A stretch of DNA of 64,000 nucleotides, from NCBI GenBank assembly GCA_002753185.1, contig PDZX01000014.1, positions 1 through 64,000 of the forward strand. Direction: 5' to 3'. The notes beneath the pieces are model-generated. The model saw nothing but the letters and a program-made list of their open reading frames with translations. It had not been told where the DNA came from and did not search any database. Source of the DNA: Magnetococcales bacterium WMHbin3 (lineage in GTDB: Bacteria > Pseudomonadota > Magnetococcia > Magnetococcales > Magnetaquicoccaceae). Shown here one piece after another: positions 18,344 through 32,455 of this stretch. The stretch's first letter is position 1, and each line of letters opens with the position of its first letter. Position numbers and translations under genes: made by a program.

Positions 18344-21300
18344 ATGATTTCTGCCCCGTCTGGACAGGCAAGGAAAGCGCCCGTGGTGCTGGTCATCGAC
18401 GATGAAGCGCCTGTCCTGACCACTTTCAAACGTTACCTCGAAAGACTGAATTATACCGTCCTGGTAGCGGAAGACGGCTATACCGGGCTGGAACTGTTCG
18501 CGCGGGAAAGTCCTGATCTGGTCATTACCGATCTTTACATGCCGGAGTGCGATGGCTTTGATGTTCTTGCAAAAATAAAAAATGAATCCTTTTTGACTCC
18601 GGTTATTATCATGTCGGGCAAGGGGGACGTCGATGATGTCATCCGGGCCTTGCATTATGGAGCGAGCGATTATTTGAAAAAACCGTTCGACAGTTTGGAT
18701 ACGTTCAAACAGGCCATCGAAAAGGCATTGAAGGATAATGAATCGGCAAGAGCGCAGGAAAAATATGTATTTGCCTTGAGTATTTTTGAAAATAATATTT
18801 CATCAATTATCATCAGTGATCTGCGTGGACGCATCGTCGAATTCAATCCGGCCTCGGAGACCCTGTTCGGTTACAAGCGGCACGAGGCCGTTGGTCGGGA
18901 TGTCAGCGATCTGATCATCCCGATGCATCTGCGCAAAGCGCACAGGCAGGCCATGCAACGTCTGGCCGCGCAACCCGATCCGATCAGGATCAAACGCAAT
19001 TTCAGAACCACCGGTATGCATGCCAATGGCGATTACATCGATATCGAAATTGTCCTGACGACGGCATCTCTATATGACAAGATTTGTTTTGTTGCCAGTA
19101 TCAATGATATAACGACATCGAAACAATTCGCCAAGGCGCTGCAGGATACGCTCTCGGTAGCGGAAACCAACCATCAGGAAAAATTACAGACGATCCACAA
19201 GATTTCCCAGTCGGAAGAAGCCGTGACCTTGGCGTTTCAATCGCAGATCATCATCAGTTCCGTGCTCCAGCTCGTGCTGGTGCCGGGGGCAATGGAGGAG
19301 TTGTTGCAACAGGCGGTCGATCTGATTGCCAGCCTGCCCTGGCTGACCTTTTGCGAGGGCATTCACCTTTCTGTGACCGGCCCGAATGACAAGAAAATCA
19401 ATATTTATTCAAAATTAAAGCAGGAGATGATTAAGGATGTATCGCGCTGCGATCACCCGCCCACCGGCACCTGCGTCTGTTCCAAATCAATCTCTTTTGG
19501 CAATGGGCAGGTGGATCAGTCATCCATTAAGGCCCAATTCTATTGCACGGACATCAACCTGGATGGCCAACCGATCGGGGTGATTCGATTCGTTTTGACT
19601 GACGCTGTCAATATGAATGAAAATGTTTTTGCATTGTATCTTGGCATGTTCTCCCAGGCTCTCGATTATCTGATCGGTCGCATCCATCTGGATGCCGCCT
19701 TGCAGCAGGCCAAGGAGCAAGCGGAGTTTGCCAGTCGTGCCAAAAGCGAATTCCTGGCCAACATGAGCCACGAGATCCGCAGCCCCCTGAATTCGATCAT
19801 CGGCCTGACCGATTTGATCATCACGACCTCCATGTCGGGCGAAGAGATCATCGACCACTTGAGGACCGTACACGCTTCCTCCCTGGTCCTGCTCGATCTG
19901 ATCAACGGCATCCTCGATCTGGCCAAGATCGAATCAGGTCATTTCGTGCTGGATGATACCTCATTCGACCTGCTCGGTCAGGTGGAAAACGCCTGCAAAC
20001 TGTTGGCCAACAAGGCGCAGCAAAAAGGGGTGGAACTTTATTGCCGGATTGACCCGGCACTGCCCGCCACCCTGCGCGGAGACCCGGTGCGCTTGAAGCA
20101 GATCCTGATCAACCTGATCAACAACGCCATCAAATTCACCGCCGAGGGCGAAGTGGTGGTGCGGGTGGAGTCCGTCGCGCCAATCGGCCTGGACGATTGC
20201 TTCGGCGTCCGCTTCGCCGTCTCCGACACCGGAATCGGCATTACCAGGGAGCAACAAGAGCGGATTTTCGAGAGTTTCACCCAGGCGGACGGCTCCACGG
20301 CGCGCAAATACGGGGGGACTGGTCTTGGACTGACCATCTCCCAACACCTGGTGACGTTGATGGGCGGTACACTGCAAGTGGCCAGTGAGCCAGGCAAGGG
20401 GACGGTATTCGATTTTTGTCTCGACTTCACTGCCGCCCCAATGGAAGAGAACGCGGAGATGGCCTCCCTGCTCGATTTGCGGTACAAATCGCGCAAGACG
20501 CCGCAATCCTGCTTTACCGGCAAGCGTGCTCTGCTGCTGGATACCCATCCGACTGGCTTGGCCATTGTTGGTGAATTGCTGCAATTTTTTGGATGCCAGG
20601 TCATTGCCGCCAGCGATATCGGACCGCTGCGCGCTTTGCTGACAGAAGAAGAGGCCCGATACGATTTTCTGGTCATTGATGAAACGGTGCTCGATGACGA
20701 AACTCCGTTGGTCGGCAGCCTCCCTCTGCCAGTCATCCTTATGACCTCCCAGCCGGATGGCTTGAAGGAGATTTTGAAGAGGGGAAATGTCCAGGAAGCC
20801 CAAATCGTTCGCAAACCGGTGCAACGCTTCCAACTGCTCAAGAAAATCGAGCAACTCGTCAATGCGTCTTTCGCCTGGTCGGCTGCAGAGGCCAATGGCG
20901 AAACAGTGGCATGGCCAGTCGTGGAGCCGTTGCGAATTTTGTTGGTGGAAGACCTGCCCGAAAATCAGATCCTGGCGGTTTCCATTCTGAAGCAACAACA
21001 CCACGAGATCACCATTGCCAACAATGGCGCCGAGGCGCTGGAAATGCTTCGAACCGCCCGCTTCGACCTGATCCTGATGGACCTGCAAATGCCGGTGCTG
21101 GATGGTTTCGAGACCACGCGCCGCATCCGTTCCGGCACTTCGGAAGATGTCGGGGACCCGGACATCCCGATCATCGCGGTCACGGCCATGGTGATGATGC
21201 GCGAACGGGAGAAATGTCTTGACCTGGGGATGAACGGTTATCTTTTAAAACCTTATCTGGCCAAACAATTGATCGGCGTGATCGCCCCCTTCACCAGAAA

Positions 21301-21643
21301 AAAGAGCGAAAAGCGCAGCGCGGCAGTGACCCTGAAGCCGGTGGCCATCGATACGGCGTCCCTGCAAAAACTCAAACGGGCGTTCGCCAGGGAAGCCGGC
21401 GGGCACCTGCAAAGTCTGCTGGAGGGGATAAAAGCATGCGATACCCTTCCAGTTCGTCAGGCGGTGGGATGGCTGAAACGAATCGCCGTGCAAATCGGCG
21501 CGAACCGCGTCGCATCCCAATGCATCCGCCTGACCGGCCAGTTGGAAATGGAAGCCTGGGAAGATGCCACGGTGATCGCCATGAATCTGCAGCGCCAGGT
21601 CAATGATCTTGTCAACCTCTTCCATTCCGAGGAGAGTCAATAA
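18344..21643 (+). CDS. Hybrid histidine kinase: REC-PAS-HisKA-HATPase-REC-REC-degenerate Hpt
   Basis: This 1099-residue cytosolic sensor kinase has, in order, an N-terminal receiver (about 12-126, phosphoacceptor D63 in ITDLYMP), a PAS domain (about 140-255), a linker or sensor region (about 285-450), HisKA with H476 (NMSHEIRSP), HATPase_c (about 590-705; DTGIGI, GTGLGL), a degenerate receiver (about 727-835), an intact receiver (about 865-985; D913 in LMDLQMP) and a helical C-terminal domain (about 1000-1099) that resembles Hpt but has Gly where the phosphorylated His is expected ([13 protein letters not shown]). No membrane segments are seen. A receiver at the N-terminus means it can receive as well as send phosphate. 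It overlaps the next gene by one base. Confidence 0.92.
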
Positions 21644-22059
21644 TGAAAATTCTAATCGCTGATGACGAACTTAACAATAGAAAGATGCTAAGAGCCTACT
21701 TGAAGTCATTCGGGCAGTGCGACATGGTGAGCGACGGCAAGGAGGCCCTGGAGTTGTTCATTGCCGACCTGGAAGACGGAGACCCTTACGATCTGGTCCT
21801 GCTCGACATCATTATGCCCAACATGGATGGTCAGAAGGCCCTGACCAAGATGCGCGCCGCCGAAAAACGTATCGCGCCCGATGCCAGACCAATCCCGATC
21901 ATCATGGCCACCGGCATGGATTCTTCCGTGCAGGCCATGCAGGCCTATTTCAAGGGCGGCTGCACCGACTATCTGACCAAACCGGTGACTCGCGAACTCC
22001 TGCTGGAAAAAATGCGCAAGCTGAATCTGATCACCGACGCGGAAAGCGAGGGGGAATGA
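21643..22059 (+). CDS. CheY-like stand-alone response regulator (first copy)
   Basis: This 138-residue single receiver domain has the acidic pair ADDE at the N-terminus, phosphoacceptor D55 (LLDIIMP), a Thr-rich switch region (MATGMD) and the conserved Lys in TKPVT. It has no output domain, so it acts by protein contact. It is a close paralogue of the receiver at 32033-32455, sharing CTDYLTKP preceded by FKG. Its start overlaps the kinase stop by one base, which suggests it is a direct phosphorylation target. Confidence 0.92.
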   Translation: MKILIADDELNNRKMLRAYLKSFGQCDMVSDGKEALELFIADLEDGDPYDLVLLDIIMPNMDGQKALTKMRAAEKRIAPDARPIPIIMATGMDSSVQAMQAYFKGGCTDYLTKPVTRELLLEKMRKLNLITDAESEGE

Positions 22060-32015: not shown

Positions 32016-32032
32016 GAGGAGAGAGGACGGAC

Positions 32033-32455
32033 ATGCAACCGATAAAAATTTTGATTGTCGATGATCATCTGCATGGCAGGCAGTTGTTGCATGCCATACT
32101 GCGCCCTTTCGGCCACTGCGACCTGGCCGAAAACGGCATGGATGCCGTTGTCCTCGTTGAGGACGCCTTGCGTCATAATGCACATTATGATTTGATTCTA
32201 TTGGATATCATGATGCCGGAAATGAACGGGCAAGCGGCCCTGCACGCGATACGTGCTGCGGAACGTGACCTTGGCATGGCAGGCAACAAGGAAGCGGTCA
32301 TTTTCATGGTGACAGGCGTCAGTTCGACGCCCGCCGTCATCGAGGCTTTTTTCAAGGGCTATTGCACGGATTATTTGACCAAGCCGATCACCCGGCAAAT
32401 ATTGCTCGATAAGTTGCAGGAATATCGTTTGATTGCTCCTGACATGGAATCTTGA
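32033..32455 (+). CDS. CheY-like stand-alone response regulator (second copy)
   Basis: This 140-residue single receiver domain has the acidic pair VDDH, phosphoacceptor D58 (LLDIMMP), the switch region FMVTGV and Lys in TKPIT. It is a paralogue of the receiver at 21643-22059, both carrying CTDYLTKP. It follows the Hpt-ending gene by 17 bases behind GGAGGAGAG, so it is a plausible acceptor of phosphate from H359 of that protein. Confidence 0.92.
   Translation: MQPIKILIVDDHLHGRQLLHAILRPFGHCDLAENGMDAVVLVEDALRHNAHYDLILLDIMMPEMNGQAALHAIRAAERDLGMAGNKEAVIFMVTGVSSTPAVIEAFFKGYCTDYLTKPITRQILLDKLQEYRLIAPDMES

Follow-up and report, generated by a model that had tools for sequence, protein, structure and literature searches.

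The stretch of DNA analysed here, hereafter the window, comprises 64,000 nucleotides of contig PDZX01000014.1 of Magnetococcales bacterium WMHbin3 and carries, alongside a magnetosome (mam) gene cluster, a trio of genes encoding ZorA-like, ZorB-like and ZorC-like proteins, together with a signalling module made up of a hybrid histidine kinase, CheY-like receivers (REC1 and REC2), a double-STAS protein, a membrane protein (HptM) and a tandem CZB protein. Zorya motors are described as phage defence in the available text of PMC11890865. Our main interpretation, to which we assign a probability of about 0.52, is that an ion motor of Zorya type I was recruited once into one lineage of magnetosome gene clusters and subsequently brought under signal control, probably for a purpose other than defence. 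The Zorya-type identity of the motor and its membership in the magnetosome cluster are well supported; a signal-gated, non-defence use is likely, and the motor is probably in the service of the magnetosome, not of phage defence, whereas its action on magnetosomes, with a role in positioning or envelope mechanics, is advanced as a hypothesis. A sequence-only reading of the window, which had proposed a phosphorelay wrapped around a Zorya-like ion motor between mamT and feoB, is partly supported by these results.

Motor proteins and their conserved residues

Profile searches group all three motor proteins with Zorya, as PADLOC assigned them to ZorA1 (6e-44), ZorB1 (1e-67) and ZorC1 (4e-46) and the best NCBIfam model for the channel was ZorA_1, at a score under its cut-off (141.4 vs 190 bits). 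Among PDB entries, the N-terminus of ZorA matches 8vvn_C (6.9e-17) and the ZorA entry 8qyd_A (9.3e-10), while ZorB matches 8vvn_B (1.7e-15), which is deposited as a MotB-related protein, which we take to be the ZorB of a Shewanella Zorya I system, and whose transmembrane aspartate lines up with D24 of the window protein. An ordinary MotAB, TolQR or ExbBD stator was considered and rejected, given that the Pfam models MotA_ExbB (17.0 bits, cut-off 22.9) and OmpA (23.8 bits, cut-off 27.2) fall short; the ZorA and ZorB models score best, and the pair thereby passes the comparison with flagellar MotAB and TolQR on which the sequence-only reading had staked its assignment. Identity with MotB or MotD was likewise discarded, the NCBIfam models lying far under their cut-offs. 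These comparisons mark ZorA, ZorB and the EH part of ZorC as Zorya homologues. Within the window ZorC, Pfam recognises EH_Signature (1.1e-17) and Hpt (5.3e-7); residues 11-309 match ZorC1, and the last third of that profile is unmatched, a CheA-P1 fold standing in its place.

The same trio was found in 18 genomes, referred to as carriers, of which 16 belong to a sample of 48 genomes of the order and two are metagenome-assembled genomes (MAGs) named as uncultured Thiotrichales. The transmembrane aspartate and the wall-motif residues of ZorB (D24, E202, H204, T205, D206 and R225) are invariant in 16/16 sequences, and the channel residues T150 and S184 of ZorA are kept in all 13 sequences counted, those of G010, G011 and G020 being incomplete and left out (G and L numbers denote genomes and loci, respectively). 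In Zorya I and II, defence has been found to depend critically on D24 of ZorB (PMC11890865, available text). The ZorA tail of about 1100 residues, already noted in the sequence-only reading, is confirmed, the protein measuring 1334 amino acids (aa) in the window and 1154-1610 aa across the 18 carriers, as compared with the 735-793 aa of ZorA from four Zorya I loci of the order; the window tail has a period of 36 residues (lags 36, 72 and 108). Because channel and wall-binding residues are kept and the tail is long in all carriers, the motor looks like a working one, as far as residues can indicate.

Distribution and shared history with the mam genes

Counting ZorB at E<1e-80 and the full-length STAS protein of the kinase module at E<1e-50, we found the former in 16 of the 48 order genomes and the latter in 18, all 16 ZorB genomes among them; the two with the STAS protein only are G006 (57% complete) and G012 (91%), and in G008 the kinase gene lies at a contig end and no STAS protein was found. 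With at most four candidates scored per genome, a full-length ZorC with its Hpt-like end is present in 15/48 order genomes, truncated in a further one (G030), and in none of 350 other Pseudomonadota sampled, seven of which match only in part, through either the EH or the Hpt stretch. A scan of genome contigs with two peptide patterns, which picks up close relatives only, returned 13 loci, 11 of them from genomes named Magnetococcales and two from the 'Thiotrichales' MAGs (G100 and G101; loci L112 and L114). Both MAGs have MamB above cut-off and the STAS protein, and are either misnamed Magnetococcales or recipients of a transferred cluster. Spread by plasmids was rejected as an explanation, since query P0008 had no match among 72,556 plasmid records and P0007 had three weak ones (<=30% identity).

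Motor and mam genes lie on one contig in 14 of the 18 carriers (G000, G001, G002, G005, G007, G009, G010, G011, G015, G018, G020, G023, G030 and G100). The position of the motor relative to the kinase module varies: the two are contiguous in the window and G001, are separated by the mam genes in eight genomes (G002, G005, G007, G010, G011, G015, G018 and G020), and in G023 and G100 the motor is found on the STAS/HptM side of the mam genes, where kinase and CZB genes are missing; G100 also shows no REC1 between motor and STAS/HptM. The adjacency seen in the window is one arrangement among several, and the expectation that kinase and motor genes stay together holds for gene content (the STAS protein of the module accompanies ZorB in 16/16 genomes) but not for gene order, as in many relatives the two are not neighbours.

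The phylogeny of the mam genes gives this association a historical dimension. In a tree of seven Mam proteins with 31 rows, the 17 carriers included (all except G030) and the kinase-side-only genomes G006, G008 and G012 fall on one branch, opposite 11 of the 29 order genomes that lack both trio and kinase side, with a support of 100 in the Shimodaira-Hasegawa-like approximate likelihood ratio test (SH-aLRT); the tree comes from a quick search with SH-aLRT values only, has long branches for G023, G028, G035, G036 and G016, and includes rows under half filled (G009, G016, G027 and G036). Distances between MamB and between ZorB sequences correlate with a Mantel r of 0.97 over 16 genomes, none of 2000 shuffles reaching as high, and with 0.89 in a 12-genome core, both without host-tree control; the Mam-ZorB distance comparisons used 15 to 17 rows. 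On this evidence the motor is inherited together with the mam genes. Furthermore, G029 groups with G018 in the Mam tree while its seven genus mates lack the trio, which points to a transfer of the cluster.

A related arrangement exists in members of the order that lack the trio. Immediately after mamT, five non-carriers (G027, G034, G038, G025 and G026) have a MotA/ZorA-like gene (469-2222 aa), an OmpA/ZorB-like gene and orf17768, one of the two genes that follow mamT in the window; this divergent pair scores best as ZorA1/ZorB1 in PADLOC (1.4e-16 and 5.8e-27 in G027), a scoring that omitted G038 and covered only the ZorA-like protein of G034. A ZorB-like gene also lies beside mamB in G028 and on the mamE side in G013, G014 and G017, preceded by a ZorA-like gene in G013 and G017. 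By eye, the channel residues of the divergent pair are incomplete: the ZorA threonine is absent in G027, G034 and G038, whose ZorB has Glu instead of Asp, and the ZorB acid is absent in G025 and G026. A profile built from six divergent ZorB sequences matches, at E 0.001, in 43/48 genomes and in 27/27 of the good ones, a count to which the ZorB of the carriers, the separate Zorya I loci and weaker matches to OmpA contribute and which is thus not proof of a pair per cluster.

The other gene after mamT, orf16877, follows it directly in all carriers where that stretch was examined, and its product matches the tip of the divergent ZorA tail (hhalign probability 96.7, E 4.4e-10), as opposed to control values of 14.0 (E 4.5e-4) for the middle of the divergent tails and 10.4 (E 7.5e-4) for window-type ZorA tails; it may have arisen by a replacement that left a remnant, or the relation may reflect a fusion. 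The orf17768 family (profile A3) occurs in 45/48 order genomes and has no Pfam match, a low-depth fold model giving a long-stranded beta sheet with one helix. These observations allow a wider reading, which we hold only tentatively and think rather doubtful, whereby a ZorAB-type motor would be general in Magnetococcales magnetosome clusters, the ancestral pair (the divergent one of non-carriers) having been replaced in one lineage by a CheA/CheY-controlled ZorABC with orf16877 and orf17768 kept as couplers, and the machine would place magnetosomes in cells without MamJ or MamY. If true, a defence motor would have been turned into an organelle motor.

Gene layout, signalling module and proposed mechanism

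All nine + strand open reading frames (ORFs) that the sequence-only reading had placed at 18344-32455 are present, each adjoining the next with overlaps of at most 11 bases and gaps of at most 17 (Table 1), and Pfam bears out their domain content (hybrid kinase, two receivers, STAS, tandem CZB, EH_Signature and Hpt). The location of the set between mamT and feoB needs amending on one side: feoB does adjoin, but two co-conserved genes sit between mamT and the kinase, the order being mamT, orf16877, orf17768, the nine genes and feoB, so that the co-conserved set begins at about 16877. The contig belongs to a 4.6-Mb assembly of 157 contigs. NCBIfam models identify MamD, MamH, MamE, MamK, MamM, MamN, MamO, MamP, MamA, MamQ, MamB, MamS and MamT in the window, with MamK, MamM, MamA and MamB above the curated cut-offs, MamP at its cut-off and MamE, MamN, MamO, MamQ, MamS and MamT below; the position of maq1 in this region is taken from the available text of PMC6783814.

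Table 1. Features of the window and of the corresponding slot in non-carriers
Feature	Position	Strand	Basis or remark
mam gene region	2917..16852	+	NCBIfam Mam models
orf16877, 286 aa	16877..17737	+	homologous to C-terminal tail tip of divergent ZorA-like protein (hhalign)
orf17768, 188 aa	17768..18334	+	short N-terminal hydrophobic stretch, then beta-rich domain
Hybrid histidine kinase, REC-PAS-HisKA-HATPase-REC	18344..21643	+	Pfam
REC1, CheY-like receiver (D55, K113)	21643..22059	+	Pfam, residue alignment
Double-STAS protein	22061..23011	+	STAS_2 1.5e-7, STAS 8.5e-5
HptM, membrane protein with N-terminal CheA-like region	23008..24963	+	hhalign, PDB match
Tandem CZB (zinc-binding) protein	24974..25798	+	two CZB stretches
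ZorA-like channel, TTG start, tail about 1100 residues	25788..29792	+	PADLOC ZorA1 6.1e-44
ZorB-like peptidoglycan anchor, transmembrane Asp24, OmpA-like domain	29806..30747	+	PADLOC ZorB1 1.1e-67
ZorC-like EH-signature protein, C-terminal CheA-P1-like four-helix bundle (H359)	30744..32015	+	PADLOC, EH_Signature
REC2, second CheY-like receiver	32033..32455	+	Pfam Response_reg 1.8e-16
FeoB iron transporter	32433..34631	+	TIGR00437 1.3e-173
Divergent ZorA-like/ZorB-like pair and orf17768, right after mamT	L084:8053-14103 (G027); also L088, L089, L086, L087

The overlap of 23 bases between REC2 and feoB in the window is the point of departure for a different view of the motor, namely that it acts as an ExbBD/TolQR-like energiser of an iron or envelope process needed for magnetite. 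The gene after ZorC is also feoB-like in G002 and G009, and CDF-like in G005, G007 and G010; feoB-like genes nonetheless occur at other sites as well, beside HptM in G007 and G030 and within the mam operon of the non-carriers G025 and G026, and this adjacency is therefore not specific. Given furthermore that no TonB-like partner was found among the scanned neighbours and that the long ZorA tail is taken as cytoplasmic, we regard an energising role as improbable.

Two further signalling genes or gene sets were observed. Downstream of feoB in the window (35400-40641) are a FIST sensor protein, a hybrid kinase with an Hpt domain and a REC-GGDEF protein; in G031, a CheR-methyltransferase-like protein (by eye; L106:3355-4212) lies upstream of ZorABC, after ribosomal-protein genes.

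Within the kinase module, the H-box and the C-terminal receiver motif of the kinase are found in 18/18 rows, whereas its N-terminal receiver motif is confined to the window and G001; D55 and K113 of REC1 are likewise kept in 18/18, and the H/C/H/H residues of CZB are invariant in both copies of the 13 proteins compared. HptM is composed, in this order, of a P1 domain without phospho-histidine, a CheA post-P1 domain, a charged helix, one apparent transmembrane helix (identified by eye), a Pro-rich linker and a C-terminal domain. Its N-terminus aligns with 11 CheA N-termini of the order at an hhalign probability of 100 (E 7.6e-63), its second domain alone at 99.9, and it matches the CheA P1 structure 2ld6 in PDB at 2.9e-10. 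The phospho-histidine position of HptM is occupied by Arg in 18/18 Magnetococcales rows and by His in G100, in agreement with the degenerate Hpt that had been read from the sequence; at the corresponding position of ZorC there is His in 5/15 rows, Asn in seven, Arg in two and Gln in one, and His also in L114 (ZorC of G030, cut by the contig end, was left out of the alignment, and the partial L112 out of the structure alignment).

HptM and the C-terminus of ZorC thus emerge from alignment as CheA-P1 relatives in which the phospho-histidine is mostly absent, and these domains probably dock the invariant CheY-like receiver. The term phosphorelay fits the kinase histidine and receiver aspartates, which are kept, but not the Hpt-like domains; similarly, ZorC does end in a recognisable Hpt domain, albeit one with no conserved phospho-acceptor. 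A His-Asp-His-Asp relay conserved as a family trait was rejected on these residue counts. Phosphotransfer to the window's own H359 in ZorC is possible.

The proposed mechanism would run as follows. The hybrid kinase would phosphorylate REC1 (and REC2), and the phosphorylated receiver would dock on two CheA-like bundles, that of HptM, anchored in the membrane, and that of ZorC, in the manner of CheY on CheA, thereby gating ZorC at the ZorA tail, while CZB would add a response to zinc or redox state. Ions flowing through ZorA-ZorB, which ZorB holds to the peptidoglycan, could then move the tail, which might act on the magnetosome or its cytoskeleton via the older resident partners orf16877 and orf17768; the most likely output would be that magnetosomes are positioned or anchored relative to the cell wall.

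The same chemotaxis-like parts (CheA P1 with the domain that follows it, CheY-like receiver and CZB) can be read in the opposite direction, with ZorAB as a sensor instead of an actuator that reads envelope strain, possibly magnetic torque, and signals via its tail and ZorC to a module steering swimming. For defence systems, wall sensing by ZorAB has been proposed (PMC11890865, available text). REC1 has no output domain, nothing was found tying the module to the flagellar switch, and the motor retains ion-channel residues that a pure sensor does not need, for which reasons we consider sensing an improbable role.

Defence, opposing evidence and known systems

Zorya I consists of ZorABCD, according to the available text of PMC11890865, and the presence or absence of an effector is hence central to the defence question. 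No match to ZorD, ZorE, ZorF or ZorG was obtained with PADLOC in the nine proteins, and no helicase or nuclease family with Pfam in 20 flanking ORFs, which upholds the earlier statement that no ZorD or ZorE effector adjoins the cluster. Searching 25-64 kb per carrier in the 18 carriers by tblastn with four ZorD queries, whereby both controls were found, gave two matches only, one at 48.2-49.6 kb of the window, the other on the contig that bears the G029 motor; the examined stretches of the other 16 carriers had no ZorD-like match. The window match belongs to a 1623-aa helicase (44778-49649) with SNF2 domains in Pfam, located between two ORFs without a Pfam match, whose best PADLOC model is DpdE (608 bits) and which reaches 353 bits with ZorD1. 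Relatives of this protein occur in 37/48 order genomes, at E<1e-100 in 12/16 carriers and 20/32 others and mostly away from the motor, and the copy in the nearest relative, G001 (91% identical), is on another contig than the motor. In view of the DpdE-best score, this distribution and the unlinked copy in G001, we do not count the SNF2 protein as part of the system and read it as an unlinked helicase, although it is the strongest point in favour of defence.

ZorD scores above 1000 bits in five separate Zorya I loci of the order (G007, G009, G021, G036 and G044); altogether, Zorya I loci elsewhere in the order are L056, L057, L058, L059, L060 and L061, with ZorD confirmed in five of the six and L057 ending after ZorC. 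Ordinary Zorya systems are thus present in the order as well, among carriers and non-carriers alike. The trio itself could still serve against phages, as a Zorya or as a variant that uses other effectors, with its seat on the magnetosome island and its arming tuned by the kinase module; this is favoured by the ZorABC homology and by a published model in which ZorB senses envelope damage (PMC11890865, available text), as well as by the helicase. Against it stand the absence of an effector from the searches above, the inheritance of the trio with the mam genes and the separate ZorD-bearing loci in the carriers G007 and G009, and we deem a defence role unlikely.

Several observations weigh against recruitment of the motor to the magnetosome cluster as favoured here, or against parts of it. 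A helicase partner is conceivable, given that the window has the ZorD-related helicase 12.3 kb past REC2 and that G029 has such a match on the contig of its motor, which is 23.9 kb long and has no mam genes. In G031 the motor is on a 12.5-kb contig beside ribosomal-protein genes (by eye), and the contigs of G004 (7.4 kb) and G101 (7.9 kb) are too short to judge linkage to mam genes. G012, despite its completeness of 91%, has the kinase module but no such ZorB. MamB is above cut-off in 44/48 order genomes, as against 16/48 with ZorB, and hence most mam-bearing members of the order lack the trio; with a single origin, moreover, the co-occurrence counts as one inherited association instead of 16. 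As regards signal control, among 19 genomes compared CZB was seen in 13 and REC2 recognised in five (the window, G001, G011, G015 and G012), being part of a 305-aa ORF in the last three; and since the window ZorC retains H359, with His also in the deep rows G023 and L114, a true His relay may be ancestral and still working here. Finally, the link between motor and magnetosome is drawn from genome data only. Even with these points taken into account, recruitment into a magnetosome lineage followed by signal control is the interpretation we favour.

Parts of this locus have been reported before. Near the mam genes of 'Ca. Magnetaquicoccus inordinatus' UR-1 and two relatives, Koziaeva et al. (2019; PMC6783814) listed an EH-signature protein, a 'MotB' ('flagellar motor protein MotB') and an apolipoprotein-domain protein; downstream of mamT in UR-1 and WMHbinv6 they described another 11 genes, whose products were 'hypothetical and chemotaxis', and they proposed that determinants of clustered magnetosomes might lie among such genes. 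In the available text of that report, the trio is neither named Zorya nor described together with the post-mamT genes as one motor system. Our literature search found no paper joining Zorya and magnetotactic, and EH signature together with magnetosome only in PMC6783814. What is new here is that the motor is identified as Zorya-type, that its control parts resemble CheA, that it is co-inherited with mam genes and that other members of the order have the divergent pair. If the favoured interpretation is true, a Zorya-type motor co-inherited with magnetosome genes, without an adjoining helicase effector and with chemotaxis-like control, would be evidence for recruitment of such motors to cell organisation.

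With respect to known systems, the likeness to magnetosome positioning factors of the MamJ/MamY type concerns the proposed role only, and no homology is claimed. The locus shares with CheA-CheY chemotaxis the CheA-P1 relatives in HptM and ZorC, the CheY-like REC1 and CZB (the chemoreceptor zinc-binding domain of Pfam), but differs from it in that HptM lacks the CheA kinase core, the phospho-histidine is mostly lost and the supposed target is a Zor motor instead of the flagellar switch. The closest parallel is with Zorya type I, with which it has in common a ZorA channel with a long cytoplasmic tail, a ZorB with transmembrane Asp24 and an OmpA-like wall domain, and a ZorC with the EH signature; in contrast to Zorya type I, the window locus is without an adjoining ZorD, has a longer ZorA tail and a ZorC ending in a CheA-P1-like bundle, and its motor is inherited along with magnetosome genes and with a kinase/receiver module.

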